Shown: positions 10,766-36,312 of the stretch, piece after piece
Numbering within the stretch: position 1 is the stretch's first letter
Layout of the letters: the number at the start of each line of letters is the position of its first letter
Source: Hyphomicrobiales bacterium
Lineage (GTDB): Bacteria; Pseudomonadota; Alphaproteobacteria; Rhizobiales; Beijerinckiaceae
Length of the DNA: 64,000 bases
Assembly (NCBI GenBank): GCA_930633495.1
Contig: CAKNFJ010000001.1
Coordinates: 4,239,001-4,303,000 of the forward strand
Reading direction: 5' to 3'
Notes under the pieces: model-generated
What the model was told of the DNA's origin: nothing
Database searches by the model: none
Seen by the model: only the letters and a program-made list of their open reading frames with translations
Program-made: the position numbers and the translations under genes

Positions 10766-10820
10766 GGAGGCGAGGATTCCGCTTGTTGCTCCGGCGGGAA
10801 CAGCCGGCAGGCCAAAATGA

Positions 10821-11106: not shown

Positions 11107-11113
11107 CCTTACA

Positions 11114-11311: not shown

Positions 11312-11332
11312 TCACAGCCACCATCCAAAAAG

Positions 11333-11650
11333 AGAGTGGAGGTTTCTGTTGCCAGGTACCTCCGAACCCCGCCTTACACGGCTAAGCGCAAGGACTTTGA
11401 TTTGGGAACCAGCACCGCTTACGCGGCGACAGCAACCCGAGCATTGTTGTCGTTGGCAACTATGCAATGGCCCGATAACGGCGGAACCATGCCGAACAGC
11501 AAGCTGAACTCTTCAGCGCCCGTCGAACCTAATTCGCCCCCGCCAAAACCCTGAGTGCCCGCAGGGCTTAGGTGGAGGCGATGGGAATCGCACCCATGTC
11601 CGAACGCCTATCATGTTCAACCGTCTACTGTCGTAGCCGTTGAAGCGGCA
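11333..11650 (-). ncRNA. ssrA: Two-piece (circularly permuted) tmRNA
   Basis: The acceptor piece comes first in transcription: T-stem ATGGG/CCCAT with a 7-base loop at 11581-11597, then the 3' acceptor strand CGCCTCC at 11574-11580 and ACC. An intervening segment with a CCCTGC/GGG hairpin follows. The coding piece begins GGGGGCG (11535-11541), which pairs with the acceptor strand in a 7-bp stem, and continues with the tRNA-like GGTTCGACGGG. The tag frame at 11419-11457 encodes ANDNNARVAVAA plus stop. Terminal CCA is not fully encoded. tmRNA rescues stalled ribosomes. The mature 3' end of the coding piece is approximate. Confidence 0.9.
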
Positions 11651-11655
11651 ACCCG

Positions 11656-11684
11656 AATATAGGTGACCAAGACATTGGCTTCAA
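11656..11684 (-). promoter_or_regulatory. Promoter of ssrA
   Basis: On the minus strand a -35 hexamer TTGAAG (complement at 11679-11684) and a -10 hexamer TATATT (11656-11661) are separated by exactly 17 bases. This places the transcription start near 11648-11650, just upstream of the acceptor piece of the intact copy. The second copy has no comparable promoter. Confidence 0.7.
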
Positions 11685-12952: not shown

Positions 12953-15205
12953 TCACATGGGTTGGACGATTTCCCAGGCAGCCGATTCATGGTCGGCCGT
13001 GAGCTCGAGGGGCTCTGAATTCGAGATCAAGGCGACAATGGGCGCGAACCCGATCTTCCTCTCTTTGAGGAGCTCGTTCGCGACCTGCTTCGTCCCGATC
13101 CTGTGATGTTGAATGATTGAACGCGCCCGGGTCATTTGCTCGGCCAGGATGCCCTCGATCCGCTCGCGAACGGTTGGCGACATGTGCAGTGTTCGCCAGA
13201 GATCGGCCTCCCCGTCCGCTGCCAAGAAGGCGAGGCCTTGACCAAGGCCGTAGGATGTTTCGAGCCGGAGCGCGGTCAGGGTAGCGAGGTGAAGGTCGCT
13301 GCCGCGCGTCCCCCCACCTCCAATCGACCTGCTGCCCAGGAAGACATCCTCCGCGGCCGTGCCACCGAGCAAAAAGCAGATCTCGTCGAGAAGGCTCTGG
13401 GCCGTCGTGTCGACAACGGCCCTCGGACCGACCAAGACGCCACCCAAGGGCTGGACAGACAAGGCTGGTTCGACGACGTCGCGAATCTCCACGGACTCAA
13501 ACCGCCTCCCGAGCGCGATTGCCACGGTGGCATGTCCAGCCTCGTGGACGGCCGTGCGGCGCATCAACTGCTCCGGGATCGCAATCGTCGGCGGAAGCGA
13601 GGCCGTGAGATCCTCGATCGCGATGGCCCTGCGCGCGCGGCGAGCCAGTCGGCGGGCGTCACGGACAAGTCGCTCCAGTGCAGCGCCGCTCCAGCCTTCT
13701 GTCCGCGCAGCGATAAACGATAAATTCTCGCCGACGAGTGCGTTATCGAGATGCCAGCGAACGATGCCTTCACGGGCGCCTGCATCCGGGAGTGGAATCT
13801 GGACGTGACGGTCAAACCGGCCGGGCCGTACGAGAGCAGCATCGAGCCGTTCCGGATAGTTGCAAGCGCCTACGACGACGACACCTTCCCGCTGCTCGAT
13901 GCCATCCAAACATTCGAGCAGGCCAGCGACCACCTCGATGTTGTACTGCGCATTCTCGCCCCTGAACGTCTCCCGGTCGCCGAGGGCGTCGACTTCGTCG
14001 ATGAACAGAATGCAAGGCGATCGGCGGCGTGCTTCGTCGAACGTCGCCCGCATGGCCTTGAGCAAGTCCCCGAGGTGGCCGCGCGCCTGCCAGCGCGCAA
14101 GCGATCCCACAACCAAATTGACTGCGCAGGTGGTTGCCAACGCCTTTGCGAAGGTAGTTTTGCCTGTTCCGGGTGCCCCGCTCACGAGGACACCCTGATC
14201 CACGTCATCCCAGCCGATCTTTCCGTCACGCCAATCCTTCAAGTCGATGGCGAGCTCTCGCGCCCAGCTTCCCGCCTCGCCGAGTCCGTGAAGATGCTCG
14301 ATCCGGAGTTGGCGCACCTCGACCGGTGGCGGCTTCTCCATCGCCTTCCGCATGCGCTCGAGCGACTGCGAAACAGGGCGCCCGCGTCGAAGTATGGTGC
14401 TGATCACCGCGAGCGGCATCGATGCAAGCTCGTGGGCCTGTTCCTCGCTCACGCTTTGGCCAAGGCAGATCTTGCCCGCAGCGATGAAATGGCGAGGCTC
14501 CGGTGCTGCGAGATGGATGATGCCATCGACCGCCGCGAGAACCATCGCCGGCAACTGGGCCGTGTCCGCAGCCAAGACAACCCAGCGGTCCTCTTTCAAA
14601 AGCCCGACGCCGGCCGGATCCTTTGAGCCTTTGCTCCAGTTCTCCTCGGCTACGACGATCTTCGCAGCCGTGTTCGAGCCCAACCGAATGGTCCGACGGG
14701 ATCGCAACGATGCAAGATGAACCGCCTGCCTGTAGTCGTCGACATCGACGTCTTCCGGCATGATCAGGACGAGCGACACCGGCTCACCACAACGCAGTTG
14801 CGGATAGCGTCGGCAGTCGCGGATGACGGTGCAGTAGGCTAGGAATCGACCCAACTTCCTGGTTACCGGAAACCGCTCCCGGAGCGCAGTGGACCTCCGA
14901 TCCATTGGGAACTCCTCTTCGAGCCAGTCGGTATCGGGCCCCTCGTGACGACGAGATATCCTGGGAGGGCTCGCGGCCGATCTTGGAAATTGCTCAGCCG
15001 AATCCACCGCACCGCGCCTCGCGACATTTGGGATGGAATTCGCAGCCGTCACCGGACCTCGAATCCGCATGGATTCGAGCCACTTGATGATCTCGCTCGC
15101 AACGGCGATGAACGATCTTAGGGCTGGTACGTTTCGGCCGGCAATCACTAGTTTGGATCGCTTGCCCGGGGGCGGCGTGACCGACCGGGTTCGGCTAGAA
15201 CGCAT
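12953..15205 (-). CDS. Cytosolic FtsH-like AAA+ ATPase with M41 zinc protease domain
   Basis: The 750-residue protein has a unique N-terminal ~300 residues without membrane segments, then an AAA+ domain and an M41 peptidase domain. The AAA+ domain has Walker A GAPGTGKT (343-350), Walker B ILFIDEVDAL (about 399-408) and RPGRFDRH arginine fingers (460-467). The peptidase has HEAGH (554-558) and a likely third zinc ligand, Asp637, in GGTRGSDLHLAT. True FtsH is membrane-anchored; this one is not and should act on soluble targets. Its start overlaps the ParA-like gene by 11 bases, and its stop is seven bases from the Phd-like start. An internal Met at residue 101 is an alternative start. Confidence 0.85.
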   Translation of the reverse strand: MRSSRTRSVTPPPGKRSKLVIAGRNVPALRSFIAVASEIIKWLESMRIRGPVTAANSIPNVARRGAVDSAEQFPRSAASPPRISRRHEGPDTDWLEEEFPMDRRSTALRERFPVTRKLGRFLAYCTVIRDCRRYPQLRCGEPVSLVLIMPEDVDVDDYRQAVHLASLRSRRTIRLGSNTAAKIVVAEENWSKGSKDPAGVGLLKEDRWVVLAADTAQLPAMVLAAVDGIIHLAAPEPRHFIAAGKICLGQSVSEEQAHELASMPLAVISTILRRGRPVSQSLERMRKAMEKPPPVEVRQLRIEHLHGLGEAGSWARELAIDLKDWRDGKIGWDDVDQGVLVSGAPGTGKTTFAKALATTCAVNLVVGSLARWQARGHLGDLLKAMRATFDEARRRSPCILFIDEVDALGDRETFRGENAQYNIEVVAGLLECLDGIEQREGVVVVGACNYPERLDAALVRPGRFDRHVQIPLPDAGAREGIVRWHLDNALVGENLSFIAARTEGWSGAALERLVRDARRLARRARRAIAIEDLTASLPPTIAIPEQLMRRTAVHEAGHATVAIALGRRFESVEIRDVVEPALSVQPLGGVLVGPRAVVDTTAQSLLDEICFLLGGTAAEDVFLGSRSIGGGGTRGSDLHLATLTALRLETSYGLGQGLAFLAADGEADLWRTLHMSPTVRERIEGILAEQMTRARSIIQHHRIGTKQVANELLKERKIGFAPIVALISNSEPLELTADHESAAWEIVQPM

Positions 15206-20080: not shown

Positions 20081-20133
20081 TCAGGCGCGGTTGACGCCGC
20101 GGTAGCGCGCGAAGCTTGTCCGGCCCGACGATC
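20081..20133 (-). pseudogene. Detached C-terminal end of the split DUF411 gene
   Basis: Read on the minus strand, the bases next to the transposon end encode GRTSFARYRGVNRA and a stop. This joins in frame to the DUF411 gene on the far side of the mercury transposon once the element and one copy of the 8-bp duplication (20126-20133) are removed. It marks the pre-insertion end of that gene. Confidence 0.85.
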
Positions 20134-20156
20134 CGGCATTAGGTAGCAAAGACCAC
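20134..20156 (+). repeat. Left terminal inverted repeat of the mer transposon
   Basis: The repeat reads CGGCATTAGGTAGCAAA followed by G and ACCAC. It is directly preceded by the target copy CGACGATC at 20126-20133. It matches the right end in 22 of 23 positions. Confidence 0.92.
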
Positions 20157-20280
20157 TGAGGGTTCGGTAAGTACCTGAATCCGAGAGGTTTCAGGCTCCT
20201 CGGTTCAAGAATTTCGATGACGCGTGGACGCCCCCGGCAGCCTCCCGAGGCCTTCGCATAGTGCGTGAGAGCCACTAGCG

Positions 20281-20709
20281 TTAGCTCGGCTCAGGCGAGA
20301 GAATGTCGAGCACTGGGCATTCGGGCGCGGTGCCGCCTTCGCAGCGGTCGATGGTCTGCCCAAGCAATCGTTCGAGTTTGCTGAGGTCGGCGATCTTTGC
20401 CCGGATATCGTCCAGGTGCTTCGTGGCGATCTCGCGAACCTCGCCGCACGGGGCGCGCTCCGGGCCGCCGAGCGCCAGAAGCGCCTTGATCTCGTCCGGG
20501 GTGAATCCGAGCTCGCGGCCGCGCCGGATAAAGGCCAGCACGCGCAGATGGTGCCGGTCGTAGACCCTGCGACCCCCCTCGGTGCGGGGCGGCGCGGGCA
20601 GCATCCCGACCTTCTCGTAGTAGCGGATGGTCTCGATGTTCACCCCGGTGAGCCGTGACAGCTCGCCGATGGGGAGCGTCCCGCCTCGCGAATGCGTGAT
20701 CGCGTCCAT
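20281..20709 (-). CDS. merR: MerR-family mercury regulator
   Basis: The 142-residue protein has an N-terminal MerR helix-turn-helix (LPIGELSRLTGVNIETIRYYEK), a dimerisation helix and three candidate ligands: Cys in APCGE and two Cys in RCEGGTAPECP. The last pair is spaced by seven residues, one fewer than in Tn501 MerR. It is divergent from merT across a 19-bp-spacer promoter, so it should repress and, with Hg(II), activate the mer genes. The start ATG has its complement at 20707-20709. Confidence 0.85.
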   Translation of the reverse strand: MDAITHSRGGTLPIGELSRLTGVNIETIRYYEKVGMLPAPPRTEGGRRVYDRHHLRVLAFIRRGRELGFTPDEIKALLALGGPERAPCGEVREIATKHLDDIRAKIADLSKLERLLGQTIDRCEGGTAPECPVLDILSPEPS

Positions 20710-20720
20710 CGAAAATGCCC

Positions 20721-20751
20721 TTGCTCCTGTAGCCACTACAGGATGCACGGT
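20721..20751 (+). promoter_or_regulatory. mer operator/promoter with 19-bp spacer
   Basis: A -35 element TTGCTC (20721-20726) and a -10 element CACGGT (20746-20751) are 19 bases apart, the overlong spacing that MerR untwists. A perfect dyad CCTGTAG-CCA-CTACAGG (20726-20742) fills the spacer and is the MerR site. merT begins 30 bases further downstream. Confidence 0.75.
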
Positions 20752-20780
20752 CGCTCCATCGACGTAAAGGAGATTGTTCG

Positions 20781-21197
20781 ATGGGTGAATTGACCCGTGC
20801 TGAGCCAAGCGGGCTGGCAAGCCGGCAGGAGGGCGCGACCTCCGCAAGAGCCAGCCAAGGCCTGCTGGCGGCCGGAGGCATTCTTGCCGCACTCGGGGCC
20901 TCGTCCTGCTGCATCCTGCCCCTCGTGCTCTTCGGCCTTGGAGCGAGCGGGGCATGGATCGGCAACCTGACCGCAATGGCGCCCTACCAGCCGGTCTTCG
21001 TGGCCGTGGCGGTGGCCTTCCTGACCTTTGGCTTCTGGCGGGTCTATCGCCAACCCAAGGCCGCCTGTGCGCCCGGAGGCTCCTGCGCGCGGCCGGGATC
21101 GAGCCGCATCGCCAAGATCGGCCTCTGGGCGGCCGCCGCGCTCGTCCTGGCGGCCGTCACCTTCCCCTATACCGCCCCGCTGCTGATCACCCTCTGA
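20781..21197 (+). CDS. merT: MerT mercuric transport protein
   Basis: This 138-residue inner-membrane protein has three hydrophobic helices. The first carries the vicinal Cys pair (GASSCCILPLV) that takes Hg(II) from MerP, and the cytosolic loop between helices two and three has a second pair (CAPGGSCARPG). It is preceded by AAAGGAG. It moves Hg(II) into the cell for MerA. The N-terminal ~25 residues are longer than in the classical protein. Confidence 0.9.
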   Translation: MGELTRAEPSGLASRQEGATSARASQGLLAAGGILAALGASSCCILPLVLFGLGASGAWIGNLTAMAPYQPVFVAVAVAFLTFGFWRVYRQPKAACAPGGSCARPGSSRIAKIGLWAAAALVLAAVTFPYTAPLLITL

Positions 21198-21208
21198 GGA
21201 GACCTGAG

Positions 21209-21514
21209 ATGAAGACCCTGTTTCGTATTGCCCTGACCGCCTCGGCCCTGATGCTCGCGGGTGGGGCCATGGCCGCACCGCGCACCGTCACGCTCAACGT
21301 CGAGAACGTGAGCTGCGCCACCTGCGCCCCGATCGTGAAGAGGGTGCTCTCCCGCATCCCGGGCGTCAGCCAGGTCACGGTGGTCGAGGACAGCGGCATG
21401 GCGACGGCGACCGTCACCTTTGACGATGGGAAGGTCACGCCCGAGGCGCTGACCCAGGCGACGACCAACGCTGGCTATCCGTCGACCGTGAAGGACGGGA
21501 AGAGTTCCTCTTGA
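21209..21514 (+). CDS. merP: MerP periplasmic mercury-binding protein
   Basis: The 101-residue protein has a signal peptide ending at AMAAP and an HMA fold with the metal site NVSCATC. It binds Hg(II) in the periplasm and hands it to MerT. It begins 11 bases after merT with a GAGGAG site. Helix and strand order are complete. Confidence 0.92.
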   Translation: MKTLFRIALTASALMLAGGAMAAPRTVTLNVENVSCATCAPIVKRVLSRIPGVSQVTVVEDSGMATATVTFDDGKVTPEALTQATTNAGYPSTVKDGKSSS

Positions 21515-21605
21515 ACCACCACGCCCTCACCAAAACCGGCAAGAGGTCTTCCTCCCCGACCGCCCGCTGCTGCGAGCCGGACGGGAACACATGAAAGTTG
21601 AGACC

Positions 21606-23039
21606 ATGAGTGACTGCTGCGGCACGGGCGCGAAGAACGGCAAGGACCGCTACGATCTGGTGGTCATCGGGGCTGGGTCGGCCGGGTTTTCCGCCGCCAT
21701 CACGGCCGCCGAACAGGGGGCACAGGTTGCCCTTGTCGGCCACGGCACAATGGGCGGCACCTGCGTCAACGTCGGCTGCGTGCCCTCCAAGGCCCTGATC
21801 CGGGCCACCGAGGCGGTGCACCACGCCAACGCGGCCTCCCGCTTTGCCGGGATCGACGGCAACGCGCGGGTGGCCGACTGGCAGGCGCTGGTTGCCCAAA
21901 AGGACGACCTTGTCGCGAGCCTGCGCCAGGCCAAGTACGTCGACCTCCTGCCGGCCTACAACAACGTGGCCTATCACGAAGGCCAGGCGCGCCTCGTTGA
22001 CGGGGGCGTGCAGGCCGGCGGCAAGCGCCTCGTCTCGGACCGCATCATCATCGCGACCGGGACGCGGCCGGCCCTGCCGGCCATCCCGGGCATCGCGGAC
22101 GTGTCCGCGCTTGACAGCACGACGGCGCTGGCCCTGACCGAGTTGCCCCGCTCCATGATCGTGGTCGGCGGCGGCTACGTCGGGGCCGAGCTCGCGCAGA
22201 CCTTCGCCCGTGCCGGAGTGGACGTGACACTGGTCTTCCGCAGCCGCCTCCTGCCGGAGGCCGAGCCCGAGATCGGAGCGGCGCTCGCCGGCTATCTCAC
22301 CGACGAGGGCATCACGGTCATGGGCGACCTGACCTATGATTCCGTTCGCAGGACGGAGGAGGGGATCGCCCTCACCGTCCTCAGGGACGGGCAACCGCAA
22401 ACCATCGGCGCCGAGCGCATCCTGGTCGCGACCGGCCGCGCCCCCAACACCGAAGGCCTTGGCCTGGCGGAGACGGGCATCGCCCAGACCCCCATGGGCG
22501 CCATCCTTGTCGACGACCGCATGCGCACCACCAGGGCCGGCGTCTACGCGGCGGGTGACGTCACGGGCAAGGACCAGTTCGTCTACATGGCCGCCTACGG
22601 CGCGAAGCTCGCGGCGAGGAACGCGCTCAACGGCGACAGCCTCCGCTATGACAATTCGGCCATGCCGGCGGTGGTCTTCACCGATCCGCAGGTCGGCAGC
22701 GTCGGGCTGACCGAAGCGCAGGCCCGCGCCGCCGGACATGACGTGCGGACCTCGGTGCTCGCCCTCGACAACGTCCCGCGCGCCCTCGCCGCCCGCGACA
22801 CGCGGGGCCTGATCAAACTCGTGGCGGACCGTGGAACCCGCAAGCTGCTCGGGGCGCACATCCTGGCCCCCGAAGGCGCGGACAGCATCCAGACGGCGGC
22901 CATGGCGATCCGGGGCGGGCTCACAATCGACGCCCTGGCTGAGACGATCTTCCCGTATCTGACCACCGTCGAGGGGCTCAAGCTCGCCGCCCAGACCTTC
23001 GACAAGGACGTCAAGATGCTGTCCTGCTGCGCAGGATAG
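21606..23039 (+). CDS. merA: MerA mercuric reductase
   Basis: This FAD- and NADPH-dependent oxidoreductase (477 residues from 21606; ATG at 21591 also possible) reduces Hg(II) to volatile Hg(0). It has an N-terminal FAD motif GAGSAGFSAA, the redox pair in GTCVNVGCVPSK, an NADPH motif GGGYVGAELAQ and the C-terminal Cys pair LSCCAG. There is no N-terminal HMA domain. It follows merP after 91 bases. Confidence 0.95.
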   Translation: MSDCCGTGAKNGKDRYDLVVIGAGSAGFSAAITAAEQGAQVALVGHGTMGGTCVNVGCVPSKALIRATEAVHHANAASRFAGIDGNARVADWQALVAQKDDLVASLRQAKYVDLLPAYNNVAYHEGQARLVDGGVQAGGKRLVSDRIIIATGTRPALPAIPGIADVSALDSTTALALTELPRSMIVVGGGYVGAELAQTFARAGVDVTLVFRSRLLPEAEPEIGAALAGYLTDEGITVMGDLTYDSVRRTEEGIALTVLRDGQPQTIGAERILVATGRAPNTEGLGLAETGIAQTPMGAILVDDRMRTTRAGVYAAGDVTGKDQFVYMAAYGAKLAARNALNGDSLRYDNSAMPAVVFTDPQVGSVGLTEAQARAAGHDVRTSVLALDNVPRALAARDTRGLIKLVADRGTRKLLGAHILAPEGADSIQTAAMAIRGGLTIDALAETIFPYLTTVEGLKLAAQTFDKDVKMLSCCAG

Positions 23040-23068
23040 CGCCTGACCACCCCATGGAGGATCGAGCC

Positions 23069-23842
23069 ATGAACAGCACCGTGAACCCCACACGAGAGGT
23101 TGCCGCGGAGATCCGGCCGGGCGTGCGGCGCCCGGACTGGTCGGCCGTGACCACGCCGGCCGCCCGACAGGCCCTCGCCGGACGCTCGGCGGCCCGTTCG
23201 GGCCTGCTCGACATGTGGTCACACGCGCTTGAGGTCAGCGAGGACATCGTCTGGCGGACCGTCCTGCGGCTCTACGCGGCCCAGGGGCGGCCTCCAAACG
23301 TCGACGAAATCGCCGCCGCGGCGGGGATCGACGGAAGCCGCGTCTCCGCGCTGCTCCGCAAGCTGCAACTGCGGGACCTCGTTGGCCTCAAGGCGGGATC
23401 GGACGCCATCTGGCTGGCCTATCCGTTCACCGAGCATGCGACCGGACACCGGGTCGAACTCAATGGGCATGTGCTGAATGCCCTGTGCGCCATCGACGCC
23501 CTCGGCGTCGCCGCGATGTACCGCACCGACGTCACGGTCGAGTCGCCGTGCCGCTCCTGTGGCGAGACGATCCGCGTCACGACAGCGGATACGGGCAGAG
23601 CACTGCGGAGCCTGTCCCATCCCGGGGCGGTCGTCTGGTACGACCTTGCCTACACCGACAGCGCGGCAGTCTCATGCTGCCCGGCGATCGCATTCTTCTG
23701 CTCCGACGGGCACCTGAAACGCTGGCTCGACAGCCAGGCGGTCCAGCGCACCGGAGCCCGTCTGGACATGAGCGAGGCTCTGGAGCTCGGCCGCGCGATC
23801 TTCGGGCCGGTCCTCAGCGAACCCGTGCCGGCGGTCGTGTGA
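23069..23842 (+). CDS. merB: MerB organomercurial lyase
   Basis: The 257-residue enzyme cleaves carbon-mercury bonds. The catalytic residues are present: Cys and Asp in NALCAIDALG (equivalent to C96 and D99) and the second Cys in VSCCPAIAFFCSD (equivalent to C159). The start at 23069 has GGAGG eight bases upstream; an ATG 15 bases earlier contains that site and is less likely. The N-terminal ~45 residues are longer than in the R831b protein. With MerA it makes the element broad-spectrum. Confidence 0.93.
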   Translation: MNSTVNPTREVAAEIRPGVRRPDWSAVTTPAARQALAGRSAARSGLLDMWSHALEVSEDIVWRTVLRLYAAQGRPPNVDEIAAAAGIDGSRVSALLRKLQLRDLVGLKAGSDAIWLAYPFTEHATGHRVELNGHVLNALCAIDALGVAAMYRTDVTVESPCRSCGETIRVTTADTGRALRSLSHPGAVVWYDLAYTDSAAVSCCPAIAFFCSDGHLKRWLDSQAVQRTGARLDMSEALELGRAIFGPVLSEPVPAVV

Positions 23843-24268
23843 GGGGGAGCGGCATCATGCGGGCCACGAGGTGCCCGCGCCGGCGGCCGTGAGGAAACCG
23901 ATCCGGGCGCGCCACACGGGCGAGATGCCAGTTCACATCCGACAGACTCGCATCGTGCTAAGTCCGCTGGAAGCCGCCGTCGGCAGCAAGTAGCGGTCGG
24001 TTAACCTCTCACCAGCGTCGCGATCGACTCCGAGCGCTCGTCCTGCCATGAGCTCCGATCATGCATCGGCTCATATGACAGCACTGACCTGAACCGCGAG
24101 GCCTTCCCGGGCTGTCGACCGTTCCCGCTGTTTCGACCATGACAATCCCAATACCGGACCGGACTCCGAGCATGACCATGCCGCTCATCACCATTGGTTT
24201 CAGCTTCCCTGCCTTCGCCGGGGGCTGGGAAATACCGCTCTCCCTCGCATCGAGGGGAGCGCTGAGCC
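23843..24268. other. Gap between merB and transposase without a recognisable gene
   Basis: About 425 bases of high-GC sequence. A 113-codon minus-strand frame overlaps the transposase start but has no family features. No terminator with a run of T was found. It may hold the transposase promoter. Confidence 0.4.
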
Positions 24269-25291
24269 ATGGAGAGGTCCGGCCAGCACTTCCTGCTTTC
24301 GCCCAAGGTCCGCGACCTGACGGTCACCGAACTCTCCCGCATCCAGGAGAGGACAGCCTACAAGTGGTTCCGGCAGGCCCGCTGGCCTGAGACGGACGGC
24401 GAGGCCTACTGCCCGCATTGCGGCAACCTGCGCTGCTACGAGATGACCCGGAGTCGTTTCAAGTGCTCCGCCAAGGAATGCGGCTCCGTCTTCACGGTGA
24501 CGTCCGGAACGGCGTTCGCCTGGCGCAAGCTGCCGTTCAAGAAGATGCTCTTCGCGATCTGGTTCGTCGCCAACTCCGTCAAGGGCAAGGCTGCCCTCCA
24601 GCTCTCCCGCGAGCTCGGCGTGCAGTACAAGACGGCCTGGGTGCTCCTGATGAAGCTCCGCGAGACCGTGGCGTCGCGCCGCGACGAGATGGTGCTCGAC
24701 GGCGAGGTCGAGATCGACGGCAAATATGCGGGCGGGCATGTGAGACCGGAAAATCGAGCGGAGGATCGTGTCGACCGACGCCTGAAGGAGAACCGGAGCC
24801 CCGACCGCCTCTGCATCCTCGCGATCCGGCAGCGGGGCGTGTCCGGCCGAACCTTCACCCGGGTCATTCGCGAGGAGGACGGTGATGCGGCATGGGCCGC
24901 GGTTCGGGATCACGTCTCCCGGAACGCGAAGGTCTTCGCCGACGAGCACGGGAGCTACAACGATGTCGTGGGTCTGAACCGCATGGGCCGGGTGAACCAC
25001 TCCGAGGCGTATTCCTCGGAGGACGGCACGAACACCAACGTCGTCGAGAGCTTCTTCAGCCGCATCCAGCGGGCCTATGTCGGCATCCACCACCGCTTCT
25101 CGACGCGATATCTCGACTGGTACGCGGCCGACATCGCCTGGCGCGAGGATATGAGGCGCACGAGCAATGGCGGGCTAACGCGTTCCCTGCTCGGGCAGGC
25201 GCTGAAGCGGCCGACGTCGCGGTCCCTGTGCGGCTACTGGCAGGGCAACAAGCCGCCTGACCTGATCTGGGAAGGCAGTGCCGCGGCCTAG
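24269..25291 (+). CDS. IS1595-family (ISXO2-like) transposase
   Basis: The 340-residue protein begins with a zinc ribbon (CPHCG and a later CxxxxC) and continues with an ISXO2-like DDE domain: EIDGKYAGG, FADEHGSYN and NVVESFFSRIQRAYVGIHHRFS with the Asn/Glu block. This is the expected length and order for the family. It is the only transposase between the terminal repeats and fits the 8-bp target duplication. Its end overlaps the convergent gene by four bases. Confidence 0.92.
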   Translation: MERSGQHFLLSPKVRDLTVTELSRIQERTAYKWFRQARWPETDGEAYCPHCGNLRCYEMTRSRFKCSAKECGSVFTVTSGTAFAWRKLPFKKMLFAIWFVANSVKGKAALQLSRELGVQYKTAWVLLMKLRETVASRRDEMVLDGEVEIDGKYAGGHVRPENRAEDRVDRRLKENRSPDRLCILAIRQRGVSGRTFTRVIREEDGDAAWAAVRDHVSRNAKVFADEHGSYNDVVGLNRMGRVNHSEAYSSEDGTNTNVVESFFSRIQRAYVGIHHRFSTRYLDWYAADIAWREDMRRTSNGGLTRSLLGQALKRPTSRSLCGYWQGNKPPDLIWEGSAAA

Positions 25292-25752
25292 GCCGCGATC
25301 TCCCAGAGATGCTTTCGGCCATCGACGGTGCCCGCTTGGCGCACGCGGCCGCGCTTGGTGAGGGCGATCAGAGCAGCGGACACCTGCGTCAGGAAACGCG
25401 GCATGGACGGATCGTCCGCGTCTGCACCGTTGCGCTCTGCGATCCGGGAGGTGCAGTCCGCTGTTGAAAGCGGTTGCTCCGCCTCGCGGAGTACCTCGAG
25501 GATGGCCTCGTTCTTGTTGATCCGTGCGAATTCGGGAGGGAGCTGTTGGGCTGCCCTCGGCCGCTGCGGCTTCGTTGCCGCGGACCCCCGCGGTACGTGG
25601 GCCGGATCGTAGATCGCGATCACCTGGTCGATCGCCGAGACCTGTCCATCGATCGCCTGAATCCTGGCCTTCAATTCCTCGACCTCGCCGAGCAGCTCGG
25701 CGCGCTTCCGCTTCAGTTCCTCGTCAACTCTCACCTGCTCCCGCTCCGTCAA
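25288..25752 (-). CDS. Coiled-coil/winged-helix partner protein of the transposon
   Basis: This 154-residue protein has an N-terminal coiled coil (DEELKRKRAELLGEVEELKA), a linker with prolines, and a C-terminal region resembling a winged helix (KNEAILEVLREAEQPLSTAD and later KRGRVRQAG). It lies inside the right terminal repeat, convergent with the transposase and overlapping it by four bases, so it belongs to the element. It could be a transposition accessory or repressor. The function is not known to me. Confidence 0.6.
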   Translation of the reverse strand: MTEREQVRVDEELKRKRAELLGEVEELKARIQAIDGQVSAIDQVIAIYDPAHVPRGSAATKPQRPRAAQQLPPEFARINKNEAILEVLREAEQPLSTADCTSRIAERNGADADDPSMPRFLTQVSAALIALTKRGRVRQAGTVDGRKHLWEIAA

Positions 25753-25791
25753 AAGGAGCCGGAAGCTACCAAAGAACCGGGATCAGATCTG

Positions 25792-25814
25792 GTGGTTTTT
25801 GCTACCTAATGCCG
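25792..25814 (-). repeat. Right terminal inverted repeat of the mer transposon
   Basis: On the minus strand it starts CGGCATTAGGTAGCAAA and ends AACCAC after one mismatch to the left end. It is followed by the target copy CGACGATC at 25815-25822. Its bases CGG CAT TAG provide the present last two codons and stop of the interrupted DUF411 frame. Confidence 0.92.
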
Positions 25815-26249
25815 CGACGATCCGAACAGGACGACCTCGTAGCTCTCCGGCGCCTTGCCGGCGACCTCCATGCCGGGAGAACCCATCGGCATTCCCGGAA
25901 CGGCGAGGCCCCGAGCCTGTGGCTTCTCGGCCAGGAGGCGCTTGACGGCGTCAGCCGGCACATGACCCTCGACCACGTAACCGGACACCTCCGCCGTGTG
26001 GCAGGAGGCAAGGTCGTCCGGCACGCCGAGGCGGAGCTTCACCTGGTCGACATCCGAGGATGTGATGACCTCGACGGGGAAGCCGGCGGCCTTCATGTGC
26101 TCCACCCAGCCACCGCAGCAGCCGCAGTTCGGATCCTTGGTCACGATCATCTTCGGCAGGGTGGCCTGCGCAAAGGCTCGTTCGGCCATCATCGCGGCGC
26201 CAGAGGTTCCGAGAACGGCGAGGAAGCTGCGGCGGTTGAGCATGAGCAT
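25815..26249 (-). pseudogene. DUF411 metal-binding protein, 3' end split off by the mer transposon
   Basis: The gene encodes a Tat or Sec signal (LNRRSFLAVLGTSGAAMM), the metal site DPNCGCCGGWVEHM and the family body to YEVVLFGSS. The frame now runs on through Arg-His to a stop at 25806 inside the transposon repeat, giving 147 residues. The original end (14 more residues) is at 20081-20125, giving about 159 residues before insertion. Since only the very C-terminus is replaced, some function may remain. It follows the HMA chaperone gene after five bases. Confidence 0.85.
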
Positions 26250-26254
26250 CTCCT

Positions 26255-26512
26255 TCAGGCTGCGACCGGGGTATAACCGGCCTTGGCGACCAGAGCCTTG
26301 ATGGATGCCAGGTCGCTGCTCCCGCGGACGGACACCAACTTGGAAGCCGGATCGGCTTCGACCTGCGTGCCGGGCAGGCCCGTCTCGATCGCGTTCTTGA
26401 TCGTGCCAGCGCAGTGACCGCAGGTCATGTCCTCGACCCGCAAGGTCAGGGCATTCGGATCACGTTCGGCCGCCTGGTCCGGCCGGGAGGAGTGGTTGTT
26501 GCATCCGCACAT
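26255..26512 (-). CDS. Copper chaperone-like HMA domain protein
   Basis: The 85-residue protein has an N-terminal Cys-rich start (MCGCNNHSS) and an HMA domain with MTCGHC. It probably binds Cu(I). The ATG at 26510-26512 has GGAGA upstream and lies 34 bases after a MerR-type promoter. It is followed directly by the DUF411 gene, so the two are cotranscribed. Confidence 0.85.
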   Translation of the reverse strand: MCGCNNHSSRPDQAAERDPNALTLRVEDMTCGHCAGTIKNAIETGLPGTQVEADPASKLVSVRGSSDLASIKALVAKAGYTPVAA

Positions 26513-26546
26513 GGAATGATCTCCGTTTCTCATCGACGATGAGAGC

Positions 26547-26577
26547 AGTCTGCACCTTCCCATGATGGTAAGGTCAA
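26547..26577 (-). promoter_or_regulatory. CueR-type copper promoter
   Basis: On the minus strand TTGACC (complement 26572-26577) and CAGACT (26547-26552) are separated by 19 bases. The spacer holds an ACCTT...AAGGT dyad, the pattern bound by CueR-like MerR-family copper sensors. It drives the HMA chaperone and DUF411 genes. Confidence 0.75.
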
Positions 26578-26728
26578 GTGGCGTTTCATCACGACGCGCC
26601 GATGTCGCGACGGCACGTACCTTTCGAGGGCGCTCTTGCGAAGGCGGACAACCCCGTGTCCGCCCGTTTTCATTGGTTCGGAGCAGGACTGACCTCGTTG
26701 CGAGCCAGGCTCCATCCGGGCTGGCGCA

Positions 26729-27406
26729 TCAGTGCTTGTTCGGGGTGTCGTCGTCAGCACCATCGGATCCGCCGGGCATCATGGCACCGCCGGGTCCCAT
26801 CATTCCCCGCCCCATCATGCCTTGCCCCATCATGCCTCGGCTGCCCATCCGGACGAGGACCGGCAGCCGCCGCTTCTGGGCCTCGTCGAGGGTCGCGTGG
26901 AGCGGCGCGGCAGCGTCCGCGAGTTTGCGCATGGCGTCGGATCCCTGGCTCATATGATCGGCCATGGTGCGCAGCATGCTCACCGGATCGTTTGCCGTCG
27001 TCCCTCCTGTCTGGCGCATGGCCTGCATATGGCTGAGGTGAAGGGTCGCCAGATTCCGGAGCGCGGTTTCGACAGGGGGCCATAGCTTTTCCTGGTCGGC
27101 GGTCAGCCTCAGCCCGGCATGGATGGACGCGATATGGGCTTCGGCGAAGGCACTCATATCCTCGGTCGAGAATTGGCCCATCATCCCTTGGCTGCCGCCG
27201 GGCATGCCTTGACCCTGCATCATCTGGCCCATGGGCATCGGCATTCCGGATTGGCCGGGCATCGCCTGAGGTTTTCCCGGCGCTGTGGATTGGGCCTGCG
27301 CCTTGGGGGCATTACCTGGATGGTGCGGGTCACTGGAAGTCGGCGCCTGGGCCAGCGTGGGCCCGGCAAGGGTAACCAGGACGGTCGCGAGAACGGACAT
27401 CTTCAT
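26729..27406 (-). CDS. Spy/CpxP-like periplasmic protein with Met-rich segments
   Basis: This 225-residue exported protein (signal ends TLAQA) has a Met-Gly-Gln-Pro-rich segment (residues ~48-75), a helical LTxxQ-like region (LRLTADQEKLWPPVE) and a second Met-Gly-rich tail (RGMMGQGMMGRGMMG). LTxxQ proteins are chaperone-like, and the Met clusters are probable Cu(I) ligands. It stands between the copper chaperone and the DUF2933 gene on the same strand. Confidence 0.75.
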   Translation of the reverse strand: MKMSVLATVLVTLAGPTLAQAPTSSDPHHPGNAPKAQAQSTAPGKPQAMPGQSGMPMPMGQMMQGQGMPGGSQGMMGQFSTEDMSAFAEAHIASIHAGLRLTADQEKLWPPVETALRNLATLHLSHMQAMRQTGGTTANDPVSMLRTMADHMSQGSDAMRKLADAAAPLHATLDEAQKRRLPVLVRMGSRGMMGQGMMGRGMMGPGGAMMPGGSDGADDDTPNKH

Positions 27407-27544
27407 GGCAGTGTCTCCTTTGAGCGGTCAAAAAGGGCAAGAACGGCGTCGGCGCAGCTTTCGCGGAATGGCCGCAGGCAGCGCCGATCAGGTTGCGTCG
27501 GGCGCAGCCATTGGTCCCGGGGCCGCAAGGGCCCCAATGTTCTC

Positions 27545-27568
27545 GGCCGGGCCGCAGACGGCCCGGCC
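27545..27568. terminator. Strong GC hairpin after the DUF2933 gene
   Basis: A perfect 10-bp stem GGCCGGGCCG/CGGCCCGGCC with a four-base loop lies nine bases beyond the DUF2933 stop, and a second hairpin (GGGGCC/GGCCCC) follows at about 27519-27535. No T-run is present. It probably separates DUF2933 from the Spy-like gene. Confidence 0.5.
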
Positions 27569-27576
27569 TTGGGCGG

Positions 27577-27810
27577 TCACTCCCGCTTGTCGTGGTGGCC
27601 GTGGCCGCCGTGCATGAACAGATGCATCAGGGGGCAGGCCAGCAGCAGGAGGTAGGGCAGTGCGGTCACGATATGACCGCCGTGGTTCGCGAGGAGGTAG
27701 ATGCCGAGAGCGGCCAACGCGAGCGAGCAGACCCAACCCAGGGGCGTGTTGATCAGCAGGGTCCGCCAGGTTCGTGGCGACTCGGGGGCAGGAGTCGGTG
27801 TGGTGGGCAT
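27577..27810 (-). CDS. DUF2933 small membrane protein
   Basis: The 77-residue protein has two hydrophobic segments (LGWVCSLALAALGIYLLANHGG and ALPYLLLLACPLMHLFMHGGHGHH) and a His-rich end, features of the DUF2933 family found in copper and heavy-metal islands. The ATG at 27808-27810 fits the family length; a longer frame upstream is not needed. Confidence 0.75.
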   Translation of the reverse strand: MPTTPTPAPESPRTWRTLLINTPLGWVCSLALAALGIYLLANHGGHIVTALPYLLLLACPLMHLFMHGGHGHHDKRE

Positions 27811-27937
27811 GTCGATCTCTCCCGGTGCGGAGCGTGCCGATCTTGGACGTTGCTTGCGAACGGCGCCTTGAGCGAAATCAAGCGGGGTACCGGAAAGGCT
27901 CGTTCCGCCCACCCGGTCTGCTCCCGCTTCCTGACAC

Positions 27938-28939
27938 CTAGCGGGCGGCGATGCCGTTCGGCCCCTTTCCGACCGGATAGGACTTCCCGGCCGAGAGGCT
28001 GCCGAGATCGATCGCGGAGATGGTGTTCGCGTAGGTGTTCGTGACGTAGGCCGTGCGACCGTCGCGAGCGATGACGATGCCGTGCGCTCCCTTGCCGACC
28101 GTCACGTTCCGGATCAGCTTGCCGTCCTCGATCGCGACGACCGACACCCGGTTGTCCGGTTTCGCCGCCGAGCCCTGGTTCGCGACCAGGGCGGCCTTGC
28201 CGTCCGGCGTAACGTAGACCTGCACGGGTCCGTTTCCGACGGAGGCCTTCCGCAGCACCTTGCGAGTGTCGACGTCGATGATGGCGACCTTGTCCTCGCC
28301 GTTGAGCGAGACCACGAGGATGCGGCCGCTCCGGTCGAACGCGACCTGGACCGGCCGCTTTCCGACGGAGATATGCATGGCCTTCTCCGGATTGCGCGTA
28401 TCCACCAACGAGACCGTGTCGCTCTTCATGTTGGCGACCGCGAGCAGGTTTCCGTCCGGCGATAGGCGCAGTCCATGCGGGTAGTTCTGCACGGGGATGC
28501 GACCGGTTACCCTACGCCCCGGGATGTCGACCACCACCACCGAGTTGGTTTCGGCGTCGGTCAGATAGGCGAAATGCCCCTGTGCGTCGGGAACGACATG
28601 CGCCGGATGCCCTCCCACGGTCACGACCTGCGGCGCGCCGGGCGCGTCGCCAGCGACGTCCATGAGAACGAGTTGCCCGCCTGCGGAGCCGTGAGCCGCG
28701 TGGCTGCCGGACTGTGCCGCAGGCATGCCGGTCGCCAGGATGAGGCGGCCATCGGCGGTGACGTCGACGTTGTGCGGCGAGATCGGAATCGCCGCGGTGG
28801 TGGTTTTCGAGGTCTGCGAGTCGATGATTGAGAGGCTCTGCCCGTTCTCATTGGCAACGACGATCGTGTCGGCCCGGGCGCTGGCGGCACCAAGGGATGT
28901 GACGAGGGCGAGTGCAATCTGGGTTCCGCGTGCGAACAT
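27938..28939 (-). CDS. YncE-like periplasmic beta-propeller protein
   Basis: The 333-residue protein has a signal peptide (ALVTSLGAASARA) and repeated blade motifs such as HVVPDAQGHFAYLTD, LRLSPDGNLLAVAN and VYVTPDGKAALVAN, as in YncE and cytochrome-d1-like propellers. No haem motif is seen. Such proteins occur in copper clusters and may bind or scaffold a periplasmic partner. The start is the ATG with complement at 28937-28939. Confidence 0.75.
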   Translation of the reverse strand: MFARGTQIALALVTSLGAASARADTIVVANENGQSLSIIDSQTSKTTTAAIPISPHNVDVTADGRLILATGMPAAQSGSHAAHGSAGGQLVLMDVAGDAPGAPQVVTVGGHPAHVVPDAQGHFAYLTDAETNSVVVVDIPGRRVTGRIPVQNYPHGLRLSPDGNLLAVANMKSDTVSLVDTRNPEKAMHISVGKRPVQVAFDRSGRILVVSLNGEDKVAIIDVDTRKVLRKASVGNGPVQVYVTPDGKAALVANQGSAAKPDNRVSVVAIEDGKLIRNVTVGKGAHGIVIARDGRTAYVTNTYANTISAIDLGSLSAGKSYPVGKGPNGIAAR

Positions 28940-29031
28940 CGCATTGTCCTTCCGAATTCGAATTGAACAGGGTCCCGGTGCCCACGCAGGCCGCGACATC
29001 ACGGAAGCGGCGGGGTCGGGATTCGGTTGGG

Positions 29032-29445
29032 TTACGCGATGGATTTTGGCGGTTTGAATCGCACCTCCGGGATTGCCCCGGCCAGCATCAGGTCATTCCC
29101 GGGCTGGAGGCAGATGGCTTCGGGCCATCCCGGGAAAGGGGCACCGGCACGGATCATCGCCGGGGGAACGACGAGGCAGCTCGAGGAAGCGCCGAGACAA
29201 TCCTGGTCACAGGAAGGGCCGCCCGCCGTTCCCTCGGCGCTGTCTTGATCCGCGTTACGGCCGTGATGGATGGAGGCCGCCGCCGGGTCGACGTGCCCAT
29301 GCTCCATGACCAACGACAGGTGCGTGGCAGGACCGGGCGCCGAAAAGGCAGGCGTCGCCATGCGACCGACCACGAGAACCATCGCGGCGACCGCGAGGAG
29401 CATGGCCATCAGCGGAGACAGAGCTTTTTTGCGACGCCTCTTCAT
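29032..29445 (-). CDS. Exported small protein of the copper cluster, unknown function
   Basis: The 137-residue product has basic residues followed by one hydrophobic helix (PLMAMLLAVAAMVLVVGRM), then a region with His-Gly-His and Cys residues (SCDQDCLGASSSCLV). I do not recognise a domain. It lies between the P1B-ATPase and YncE-like genes on the same strand, so a metal-linked role is likely. The start is the ATG whose complement is at 29443-29445. Confidence 0.55.
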   Translation of the reverse strand: MKRRRKKALSPLMAMLLAVAAMVLVVGRMATPAFSAPGPATHLSLVMEHGHVDPAAASIHHGRNADQDSAEGTAGGPSCDQDCLGASSSCLVVPPAMIRAGAPFPGWPEAICLQPGNDLMLAGAIPEVRFKPPKSIA

Positions 29446-29542
29446 TGCAGGAAGTCTACCCGGTTGGCGGACCGAAACCTTGCGCTGCATCAAACAGTCG
29501 GACGGACCGGGCGGCTCCCAATGGAACTGCCCGGCCCGGCAA

Positions 29543-31924
29543 CTACAGTCGTACCGCGCGCAGGCGGATCGCGTTGCCGATCACGCTGACCGACGACAGT
29601 GCCATCGCGGCCGCCGCGATGATCGGCGACAGCAGGATGCCGAAGAACGGAAACAGCACTCCCGCCGCCACGGGCACGCCGAGCGCATTGTAGATGAAGG
29701 CGAAGAACAGGTTCTGGCGGATGTTTCGCATCACGGCCTGCGACAGCCGTCGCGCCCGCACGATTCCGGTGAGGTCGCCTTTCAGCAGGGTCACGCCCGC
29801 ACTTTCCATCGCCACGTCGGTGCCCGTGCCCATGGCGATGCCGACATCCGCCGCCGCCAGCGCCGGCGCGTCGTTGACGCCGTCGCCCGCCATGGCGACC
29901 ACCCTGCCGTCTGCCTTGTAACGCTGGACCACGGCACTCTTCTGGTCGGGCAGGACCTCGGCCTCGACCTCGTCGATTCCGAGCCGCCTGGCGACCGCCT
30001 TCGCGGTGGTCCAGTTGTCGCCGGTGAGCATCACGACCCGGATGCCTTCCGCCCTGAGCCCGGCGAGCGCCTCCGGCGTCGAACTCTTGACCGGATCCGC
30101 AATTGCGATGGCACCCGCCACCTTCCCGCCGATTCCGGCGAAGATCACCGTGGCGCCGTCCTCGCGCAACTTGTCCGCCTGCTCCGCCAGGCGAGCTGGA
30201 TCGATGCCATGCTCGGTCAGGAAGGCCGCGTTGCCGAGCACGACGCGCCGTCCCTCGACGGTACCCAGCGCTCCCTTGCCGGTGGGCGAGTCGAAATCGG
30301 CGACCGGCGCGGTGGCGATACCCTGCTTGTCGGCGGCCGCGACGATGGCCAGCGCCAACGGATGCTCGCTTGCCCGTTCCACGCTGGCTGACAGGCGCAG
30401 GATTTCGGCTTCGTCAAAACCCGGAGCCGGAACCACGGCAGTCACGGATGGCTTGCCCTCCGTGAGGGTTCCGGTCTTGTCGACCACGAGGGTGTCGACC
30501 TTCTCCATGTGTTCCAAGGCCTCGGCATTCTTGATCAGAACGCCCGCCTGGGCGCCGCGGCCGACCCCGACCATGATCGACATTGGCGTGGCGAGACCAA
30601 GCGCGCACGGACAGGCGATGATGAGGACCGCGACGGCCGCAACGAGGCCGTAGGAGAACCGCGGCTCCGGACCCCAGAACGCCCACGCGATGAAGGCGAG
30701 TGCCGCAATGCCGATGACCGCGGGCACGAAGTAGCCCGAGACGTGATCGGCCAATCGCTGGATCGGGGCGCGGCTGCGCTGGGCCTCCGCCACCAGTTGG
30801 ACGATCCGCGACAACATCGTGTCGTGCCCAACCTTCTGCGCCTCGATCACGAGTCCGCCGGACTGGTTCATCGTGCCCCCGATGGCCGCGGCCCCCGCTT
30901 CCTTGGTGACCGGCATCGACTCGCCCGTGACCATCGACTCGTCGACCGCGCTGCGTCCCTCGACGACGACGCCGTCGACCGGGACCTTCTCGCCCGGCCG
31001 CACCCGCAGACGGTCGCCGACCTGCACGGTGTCGAGCTGGACCTCCTGCTCGGTGCCGTCGGGCATGATCCTGCGGGCCGTCTTGGGCGCGAGGTCGAGC
31101 AGGGCGCGAATGGCCCCGCTGGTGCTCTCCCGTGCCCGCAACTCGAGGACCTGCCCGAGCAAGACGAGAACCGTGATGACGGAGGCCGCTTCGAAGTACA
31201 CGGCCACCGAGCCGTCATGACCTCGGAACGCAGCCGGGAAGATCCCGGGCGCCAGCGTCGCCACCATGCTGTAGACCCAGGCCACGCCCGTGCCCATGGC
31301 GATGAGGGTGAACATGTTGAGGTTGCGCGAGACCAGGGACTGCCAGCCGCGCTCGAAGAACGGCCAGCCGGCCCACAGCACGACCGGTGTCGCGAGCAGC
31401 ATCTGGATCCAGTTCGAGGTCTGCTGGCCGACATAGTGGCCCAGACCTGTCAGGTGACCGCCCATTTCCAACACGACCACGGGCAGGGAGAGCGCGAGTC
31501 CGATCCAGAACCGGCGCGTCATGTCGATCAGTTCGTGGCTGGGGCCGGTCTCCGCCGTCGCGAGCACCGGTTCGAGCGCCATTCCGCAGATCGGACAAGA
31601 GCCTGGTCCCACCTGTCTGATCTGGGGATGCATCGGGCAGGTGTAGATCGTGCCTTCCGGCACGGGTTCCGCCGTCCGGGCCGCCGCTGGCTCGACGTAT
31701 TTGGCGGGCTCCGCCATGAATTTCGACTGGCAGCCGGAGGAGCAGAAGTAATAGGGCTTGCCCCCGTACTGCGCCCGGTGCGTCGTCGCGTGCGGGTCGA
31801 CCGTCATCCCGCAGACCGGGTCCTTTACCTTCCCGGCTTCTCCCTCGTGCTCATGATGATGTCCCCCATGGGCGCCATGGTCATGATGATGGCCATGGCC
31901 CTTGCTGGTTGGGGTGTCGGTCAT
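29543..31924 (-). CDS. P1B-type copper-exporting ATPase with YHS and Cys-rich N-terminus
   Basis: The 793-residue protein has a His-rich start ([18 protein letters not shown]), a YHS domain ([19 protein letters not shown]), a metal-binding domain (YTCPMHPQI then [10 protein letters not shown]) and a full P-type ATPase. The ATPase has TGESMPV, the CPC channel motif ([13 protein letters not shown]), the phosphorylated [15 protein letters not shown] and [10 protein letters not shown]. It exports Cu(I), or Ag(I), from the cytosol. The start at 31922-31924 has GGAGA upstream and a MerR-type promoter 36 bases away. Confidence 0.92.
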
Positions 31925-31960
31925 GACGGTTCTCCGCATATGCATCGATGAGCTGACGCA

Positions 31961-31991
31961 AGGTTGAGGATTCCCATGATGGGAAGGTCAA
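31961..31991 (-). promoter_or_regulatory. CueR-type promoter of the copper ATPase gene
   Basis: Minus-strand TTGACC (31986-31991) and CAACCT (31961-31966) are 19 bases apart, with CCCATCATGGG as dyad centre in the spacer. The same design precedes the HMA chaperone gene at 26547-26577. Confidence 0.75.
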
Positions 31992-32086
31992 GTACTTGCC
32001 TCCGGGGCCTCTACATCGACGCGATCGAGGCGGATCTCGACCTCGGTGAACCACCCCAAGGCTTGCTCCACCCAGGTGTCCCGAAT

Positions 32087-32136
32087 GGCCGATCCGGCGC
32101 AAGCAAACCGGGAAATGCCTGCGCCCCGGATCGGCC
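32087..32136. terminator. Inverted repeat after cusF-like gene
   Basis: A perfect 11-bp stem GGCCGATCCGG/CCGGATCGGCC with a 28-base loop lies seven bases beyond the CusF-like stop. It probably ends the copper oxidase operon before the ATPase promoter. Confidence 0.55.
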
Positions 32137-32143
32137 GTTTAGG

Positions 32144-32422
32144 TTACTTCGCCTTTTGAAGCTTGGTGACCGTGATCTGGCCGTTGACGCGGTCGGCGTC
32201 GAACTTGATCTTGTCCCCGGCCTTCAGCCCTTTGAGCATGGCGGGATCGCCAGCCCGGAACACCATGGTCATGGCGTCCATGTCGAGGTTCTTGATGGCG
32301 CCGTGGTTGATGGTGAGCTTGCCCTGAGCCTCGTCGACCTTGGTGACGGTGCCGCTGACCGACTGGGCGGCAGCCGGTAGCGCGACCATCAGGAATGCGA
32401 GGGTGGCGGTGGTCTTCAGCAT
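32144..32422 (-). CDS. CusF-like periplasmic copper-binding protein
   Basis: The 92-residue protein has a signal peptide (FLMVALPAAAQS) and an OB-like CusF fold. LTINHGAIKNLDMDAMTM supplies the His and Met ligands for Cu(I). It is the last gene of the TolC-oxidase-cupredoxin run and starts 23 bases after the cupredoxin stop. Confidence 0.85.
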   Translation of the reverse strand: MLKTTATLAFLMVALPAAAQSVSGTVTKVDEAQGKLTINHGAIKNLDMDAMTMVFRAGDPAMLKGLKAGDKIKFDADRVNGQITVTKLQKAK

Positions 32423-32445
32423 GGGATGATCCTTTCCTCTGACGC

Positions 32446-32928
32446 TTACTTGACGATGATCTTGCCGGTCATGCCGGCTTCCCGATGGCCGGGGATCAGG
32501 CAGGAGAAGTCGAACTCGCCCGCCTTGGTGAAGGCCCAGACGATCTCGCCGGTCTTCTTCGGCGCGAGCCGCTTGGCGTTCGGATCGTCATGTTCCATGT
32601 CGGGGTTCTTCTGCATCTCGATGGCATGCTTGAGGTTCTCCTCCAGCGTGGCCAGCACGAGTTCATGGTCGAGTTCGCCGTTGTTGCGAAGCTGGAAGCG
32701 AATCTGCTCGCCGCGACGCACCTCGATCCGGTCGGGGATGAAGGCCATCTTGCCGTCCTTCTCGCTCATCACGACCTGGACGATCCGGGCCGGTTTCTTG
32801 GGATCGCCCGCCTTGCCGTAAGCCGCCTCGTCGCCATGGCTGTGGCCGGCCGCGCCGGGCCCGGCAAACGCGGCGCCAGCCGACATCAAAAGTCCGATCG
32901 CGGCAAATTTGAACGGTGCTGTCTTCAT
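32446..32928 (-). CDS. Periplasmic cupredoxin
   Basis: The 160-residue exported protein has a plastocyanin/azurin-like domain with type 1 copper ligands: His in GELDHELVLA, then Cys, His and Met in FSCLIPGHREAGM. A HSHGDE segment follows the signal peptide. It probably carries copper or electrons for the oxidase encoded 28 bases upstream. Confidence 0.85.
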   Translation of the reverse strand: MKTAPFKFAAIGLLMSAGAAFAGPGAAGHSHGDEAAYGKAGDPKKPARIVQVVMSEKDGKMAFIPDRIEVRRGEQIRFQLRNNGELDHELVLATLEENLKHAIEMQKNPDMEHDDPNAKRLAPKKTGEIVWAFTKAGEFDFSCLIPGHREAGMTGKIIVK

Positions 32929-32956
32929 CTCTATCTCCGGAAGTGAATGTTCTGCG

Positions 32957-34393: not shown

Positions 34394-34407
34394 CTCGGAA
34401 AGCTCCT

Positions 34408-36170: not shown

Positions 36171-36312
36171 GATGCAACAGGGGTAACAGCGGCCGTCCGT
36201 CGGTGTCCGTTACAAATTGTTTCAATCCGGCAGGCGGCACTCCCTTCCGGGCGCGCTATACAAGTCCGGCTCGGCAGAAGCCGAGGCGCATTGCGGACTG
36301 GAAACGACGCGC

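Follow-up and report, generated by a model that had tools for sequence, protein, structure and literature searches.

The stretch of DNA described here, referred to as the window, comprises 64,000 nt (positions 4,239,001-4,303,000 of contig CAKNFJ010000001.1, assembly GCA_930633495.1) from a Hyphomicrobiales bacterium, a soil bacterium of the genus Bosea with a genome of 5.94 Mb. Situated at window positions 20134-25814 is a complete transposon of 5,681 bp, which carries a mercury (mer) cassette together with a transposase gene of the IS1595 family. The gene order between its ends is merR on the minus strand, followed by merT, merP, merA, merB, the transposase gene and an open reading frame (ORF) of 154 codons, termed the partner gene here, which runs convergent with the transposase gene. 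The features are as follows, in window positions.

20126-20133, no strand: target duplication of 8 bp, left copy (CGACGATC); single copy in the empty sites L152 and L153
20134-20156, plus strand: left terminal inverted repeat, complementary to the right one at 22 of 23 positions; relatives have similar ends
20134-20239, plus strand: left core end of the transposon, ahead of the mer cassette; element positions 1-106 are similar to locus L125, 1-93 to L147 and 1-69 to L126
20281-20709, minus strand: merR; PF13411 and PF09278, named from context
20287-23865, no strand: mer cassette; 86% DNA identity to Microvirga plasmid pMVF16-3, where it stands without the transposon
20781-21197, plus strand: merT; PF02411
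21209-21514, plus strand: merP (HMA); PF00403, with TIGR02052 just under its cut-off (86.1 against 92.55 bits)
21591-23039, plus strand: merA; NCBIfam TIGR02053 at 543 bits (cut-off 454), PDB 5x1y, motifs
23054-23842, plus strand: merB, organomercurial lyase; PF03243, PDB 5c17/1s6l, 62% identity to the pMR68 protein
24269-25291, plus strand: IS1595-family transposase with zinc ribbon and DDE domain; PF12760, PF12762 and NF033547, triad D150, D225, E260
25288-25752, minus strand: partner gene; predicted N-terminal helix (3-48) and winged helix, 62 bp from the right end
25792-25814, minus strand: right terminal inverted repeat, 22 of 23 positions complementary to the left one
25815-25822, no strand: right copy of the target duplication CGACGATC, a perfect duplicate of the left copy
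25815-26249, minus strand: main part of the interrupted DUF411 gene (PF04214), the last codons of which lie at 20081-20133, left of the element

The terminal inverted repeats are 23 bp long with one mismatch, and the flanking 8-bp target duplication is perfect. A search for arm pairs (exact 11-base seed, at most one mismatch, arms more than 500 bp apart) returned a single 23-bp pair in the 6.2-kb region and likewise in the whole window, and it is this pair that bears the duplication; when the 6.2-kb region was dinucleotide-shuffled 200 times, no 23-bp pair arose in any of the shuffles. Within the host's genome, the 15-mer of the end was found, with up to two mismatches, only at the two ends of the element, whereas the reversed pattern had 30 matches at that tolerance. 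A composite transposon is ruled out by the single genomic match to the transposase and the single end pair, without a flanking pair of insertion sequences. The first-pass annotation had described a complete mercury transposon with 23-bp ends (one mismatch), an 8-bp repeat, merR/T/P/A/B, a transposase and a 154-residue gene; the ends, the duplication, the domain matches and the shuffle control all agree with that description.

The site before insertion is preserved in relatives. An empty site is present in two of 67 Bosea genomes (G012 and G038; loci L152 and L153), with 97% identity over the 786-bp query; further, weaker matches among the 67 genomes were not interpreted as sites. Both empty sites contain one copy of CGACGATC, and 77 of the 80 flanking bases (40 per side) are identical to the window. 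The DUF411 ORF is unbroken at both, with 159 codons; empty sites of this kind, with an intact DUF411 gene, were what the first-pass annotation had proposed to look for. These two genomes remain 96% identical over 1,500 bp to the right of the site; only 56 bp match on the left. The filled site is found in three of the 67 genomes of the genus (G000, G026 and G056).

The transposase exhibits the DDE_Tnp_IS1595 domain with scores of 138 bits for PF12762 (cut-off 27) and 139 bits for NF033547 (cut-off 75), and the zinc ribbon with 34.1 bits for PF12760 (cut-off 25.4). The family description places an N-terminal zinc ribbon in all IS1595 groups but IS1016, and names a single transposase gene (PMC8101967). 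ISfinder divides the family into seven subgroups. The present element likewise has one transposase, the partner being an extra gene without a transposase match, and its target duplication has the 8 bp of the family. The triad D150/D225/E260 is invariant in the window protein and 75 sequences of its branch. Among eight distant IS1595 transposases, hand-picked from the matches listed (60 of 297 records), D150 and D225 are present in all eight and E260 in six. Passenger genes have been described on other IS1595 elements, called tIS, of which tISCpe8 and MTnSag1/tISSag10 are examples (PMC5704250). The merR-T-P-A-B genes, unrelated to transposition, sit between the ends here. We are highly confident that the locus holds a 5,681-bp IS1595-family transposon of this tIS kind, consisting of a core and a cargo slot filled by the merR-TPAB cassette, inserted in a DUF411 gene. 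The element is complete and, judged from its sequence, apparently autonomous.

Further support for this assignment comes from relatives with the same kind of ends and other cargo. The transposase search of genome contigs gave 95 relatives, of which 80 were retained, and candidate elements were accepted among loci L001-L147 when a 16-nt end with at most four mismatches stood on each side together with a target duplication matching at 7-8 of 8 bp. This rule gave 43 non-duplicate candidates of 1,061-9,737 bp (median 4,331), after four duplicate rows were dropped; L082 is counted twice for two possible right ends, the elements are related and so not independent, and some have broken transposases. 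A transposase match is present in 42 of the 43. Several close relatives lie outside the 43, one end or a matching duplication being missing in the fetched stretch. Among the hosts are Rhizobium, Ensifer, Mesorhizobium, Rhodopseudomonas, Acinetobacter, Methylobacter, a Gallionellaceae bin and Arcobacter. With at most one mismatch, the 15-mer of the end occurs at 45 places in 19 of the 67 Bosea genomes, the reversed control having 13 places in 12 genomes. Exact copies are present in 15 of 397 genomes sampled from the order, the reversed control in none. The carrier branch is thus widespread and not rare, and the earlier proposal of a carrier type "rare or undescribed" is not supported, passenger-bearing IS1595 elements being already on record (PMC5704250).

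The core common to the relatives has the left end on one side, and the transposase, partner and right end on the other; homology extends over roughly the first 106 bp and sets in again near element position 3882. A further Bosea (G057, L125; a copy outside the list of 43) has a core that is 92% identical over 24235-25804 (element positions 4102-5671), and its slot contains other sequence, including another transposase-like ORF identified by reading, with no mer match. Ends like CGGCATTAGGTAGCAA are present in L125 as well as in the relatives from a Microvirga ossetica plasmid (L103, 2,752 bp) and from Acinetobacter (L031, L038). The 8-bp duplication of L103 and L031/L038 and their transposase-partner order are as in the window element, the order being seen in L125 too. 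What differs is the cargo: inositol monophosphatase, EcoRI-like restriction-modification, type III restriction-modification and others. Because similar ends bound the same type of transposase with other cargo, the ends belong with the IS1595 core and not with mer, in line with the earlier view that the IS1595 transposase mobilises the element.

Mer genes usually travel on Tn3-, Tn5053- or composite-type elements, and on the strength of that habit the ends might be assigned to such a transposon, with the IS1595 gene as a bystander. The mer transposons of the Tn3 and Tn5053 types possess resolvase or TniA-type genes and a 5-bp duplication. No gene of either kind was detected among the seven element proteins scanned with Pfam and NCBIfam, no pair of insertion sequences flanks the element, and the duplication is of 8 bp. 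That the ends might belong to a different element with its own transposase, a possibility named in the first-pass annotation, is contradicted by the IS1595-core elements that have the same kind of ends and lack mer. A Tn3/Tn5053 carrier is ruled out by these elements and by the 8-bp duplication, and we consider the bystander explanation extremely improbable.

Listing the cargo of relatives bounded by such ends, a check proposed earlier, showed that the slot is often filled by restriction-modification genes, whereas matches to mer proteins occur in the window element alone among the 43. Restriction-modification or DNA-methylase genes are present in at least 13 of the 43 (L029, L031, L034, L036, L038, L039, L041, L047, L049, L059, L061, L065 and L075), four of which (L029, L039, L047 and L065) were counted on a methylase alone; these cargo counts are lower bounds, as only part of the cargo ORFs were scanned. 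Other elements carry PD-Lambda-2_B-like (L077) and PDC-S05-like (L060) genes. Further cargo includes Panacea-domain (L050, L130), HTH/M78 (L131), LysR/flavodoxin (L008), ATPase_2/DUF234 (L009, L012) and AAA/M41 (L019) proteins and the inositol monophosphatase of L103, and several scanned proteins, for example in L016, L028 and L052, gave no match. For the most part, the cargo slot is located between left end and transposase; L043, L054 and L060, for example, also have ORFs between the transposase and the partner.

The 154-residue partner marks this IS1595 branch. Its ORF is found in 42 of the 43 end-bounded candidates, usually 33-88 bp from one end and with very varied cargo, and near 85 of 91 branch transposases versus none of the eight distant ones. 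Neither Pfam nor NCBIfam gives a match to the protein at E 0.001. When its alignment was compared with PDB sequences, the hits were mainly coiled coils and weak ones, the best being a chain named Sc-apCC-2-KLHL20-4 (E 2e-4), followed by SdeA (0.012). Foldseek with the structural model had its best match at E 3.6e-3, thus none that reached 0.001. The leading structural matches are mostly winged-helix proteins (MarR, Fur, linker histone, forkhead and Z-alpha), with the N-terminal helix barely probed, and since methyltransferase, LACTB2 and MukBEF also appear among them, no specific family is named. Two different partner genes stand in tandem next to the right end of one element (L034, 9023-9886). 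The element of L133 (7240-8300), 1,061 bp long, shares the ends and has a perfect 8-bp duplication, but it lacks a transposase and retains only a partner remnant; it is perhaps a non-autonomous derivative.

The predicted winged helix, a common fold of regulators, would also suit a mere passenger or a small self-standing regulator outside the transposition machinery. The mention of one transposase gene in the family description (PMC8101967) fits such a role, as does L020, a nearly complete branch transposase with no partner within 6 kb. The near-constant presence of the gene, usually close to one end, and its restriction to the branch in the comparison with the distant transposases, speak against it, and we regard a passenger or regulator as possible but rather doubtful. 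The designation "partner" in the first-pass annotation holds insofar as the gene is tied to the branch; its role in transposition is putative. It is quite possible, and is proposed here tentatively, that the branch has a two-gene core of DDE transposase and obligate coiled-coil/winged-helix co-factor, the latter usually encoded next to the right end, which would enable large, exchangeable cargo (mercury resistance in Bosea, restriction-modification and other defence-like genes in other hosts) and make the branch a general vehicle for defence and resistance; candidate elements of the branch reach 9.7 kb.

With regard to the mer genes, the start of merR was placed by reading at the ATG at 20709, the listed ORF extending to 20976. 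MerA contains the motifs CVNVGC at residue 58 and SCCAG at the C-terminus, and the Pfam scan reported no N-terminal HMA domain in it. MerB is a distant relative of the solved MerB structures (best 5c17, E 7e-9). It has a Cys three residues past a conserved Cys, where the protein of pMR68 has Ser and where classical MerB has Asp. The closest characterised comparison is mer cluster 1 of pMR68 from Pseudomonas K-62, with identities of 82% for MerA, 62% for MerB, 72% for MerT, 71% for MerP and 54% for MerR. That cluster differs in having merF and extra ORFs, flanking IS4- and IS5-family transposase genes and no IS1595 core. Cloned into E. coli, it made the cells more resistant to both Hg(II) and phenylmercury (PMC3737084). 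Given these identities of MerA (82%) and MerB (62%) to the proteins of a cluster that confers resistance, broad-spectrum resistance (Hg(II) and organomercury) is likely for the present element, so that the earlier term "broad-spectrum" stands as a likely property deduced from protein similarity. Microvirga sp. VF16 plasmid pMVF16-3 has the same merR-T-P-A-B order and a MerA that is 89% identical, with no transposase, partner, core protein or end pair in the 15.6 kb fetched. The mer cassette thus occurs there without the core. Among the loci compared, the other mer matches are in plasmid loci L104 and L148, with one MerR-like match in L170.

Like tISCpe8 and MTnSag1/tISSag10, the window element combines an IS1595-type DDE transposase, inverted ends of ~25 bp, a target duplication and a passenger gene (PMC5704250). 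In the same source, the passenger of tISCpe8 is lincomycin resistance rather than mer, and tISCpe8 and MTnSag1 are mobilizable by conjugation; the branch-conserved partner gene distinguishes the window element from both. No mer operon on an IS1595 element was found in that part of the literature that was searched, and the partner and the range of cargo may have been described before. The element thus adds mer to a known kind, passenger-carrying IS1595 elements being known already.

Bosea thiooxidans DSM 9653 (L003, G026) and Bosea sp. 67-29 (L004, G056) contain all 5,681 bp at 100% identity, and the flanks of both copies match the window at 99.98-99.99% over 17 kb. Compared per 500 bp with G026 and G056, the window is 98.8-100% identical from ~11.5 to 36.5 kb, a stretch of ~25 kb, and 92-99.8% identical over the next part, 36.5-40.5 kb. 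On the left, before 11.5 kb, the identity is 75-94%, save one 393-bp match to G056 at 99.2%; no match is present in the fetched stretches for 40.5-52.5 kb, and 80-96% identity returns at 52.5-59 kb. G026 and G056 have ~62.5 kb in common at 99.7-99.99%, in surroundings of 75-92%. As three species carry the identical element at the same site within ~25 kb of near-identical sequence, the perfect target duplication gives no date for the jump, and the "recent movement" previously read from it does not follow. The comparison points to a single entry of the mer transposon, after which the larger metal-resistance stretch holding it, probably an island, and not the transposon alone, would have spread recently between Bosea species.

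Where the near-identical stretch has its edge there is a tmRNA gene (11328-11662), and a partial second match covers 10812-11094. The two adjoining tmRNA-like stretches (10812-11662) give the impression of an island insertion at ssrA that left the gene restored. ORFs with weak phage-integrase matches are present at 53420-55348 and 57317-58768, within a block of ORFs (52983-58768) that has low third-position GC and is 80-96% identical per 500 bp to the other two species; these are possibly recombinases of an island. An island inserted at ssrA, with the mer and copper part common to the three species and a differing far part, is a reading of this arrangement that we put forward tentatively. Metal genes surround the transposon at 26255-38519 and 44610-47629 (YHS/HMBD P-type ATPase, multicopper oxidase and ArsB; an HMA chaperone, a two-component pair and an ArsR-like ORF were recognised by reading alone), and IS21-type genes lie at 40549-42922. 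We also note a protein with AAA and peptidase M41 domains (12953-15205), which falls within the near-identical stretch, not far from its edge; a related transposon of Rhodopseudomonas carries a protein with this domain pair as cargo (L019, 5704-7680).

The three copies, with one site and identical sequence, could also be the remains of one old jump, the larger shared stretch having been the sole vehicle of the element ever since and the element itself being no longer mobile. The single end pair in its own genome agrees with this, as does the result that none of 151 matching plasmid records holds 80% of the element. A cut-and-paste element would likewise be expected as a single copy, however, and the catalytic residues of the transposase, the partner, both ends and the perfect duplication are all intact; a fossil is therefore unlikely in our judgement. 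A few points do weigh against the overall explanation: the mer version occurs at one site only and its three copies are explained by one insertion; activity is argued from intact genes and from relatives; the role of the partner is putative; and the MerR protein scores equally for NCBIfam MerR and CueR, below both cut-offs.

Taking the element as an IS1595-family transposon with mer cargo, its action may be outlined. The DDE transposase would bind both 23-bp ends and join the element to a target with an 8-bp stagger, and the partner, a predicted coiled-coil/winged-helix protein, may aid DNA binding, end pairing or control of expression. MerR would sense Hg(II), MerT and MerP would import it, MerB would cleave organomercury, and MerA would reduce Hg(II) to volatile Hg(0).

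Mercury detoxification hereby joins the cargo seen on IS1595-type elements, and the branch found here may act quite generally in carrying defence genes. The filled site, the empty site, the carrier-free cassette and the carrier with other cargo together make a clear example of a small transposon acquiring an operon, and the conserved partner poses a testable question as to what small elements resembling insertion sequences need in order to carry large cargo.

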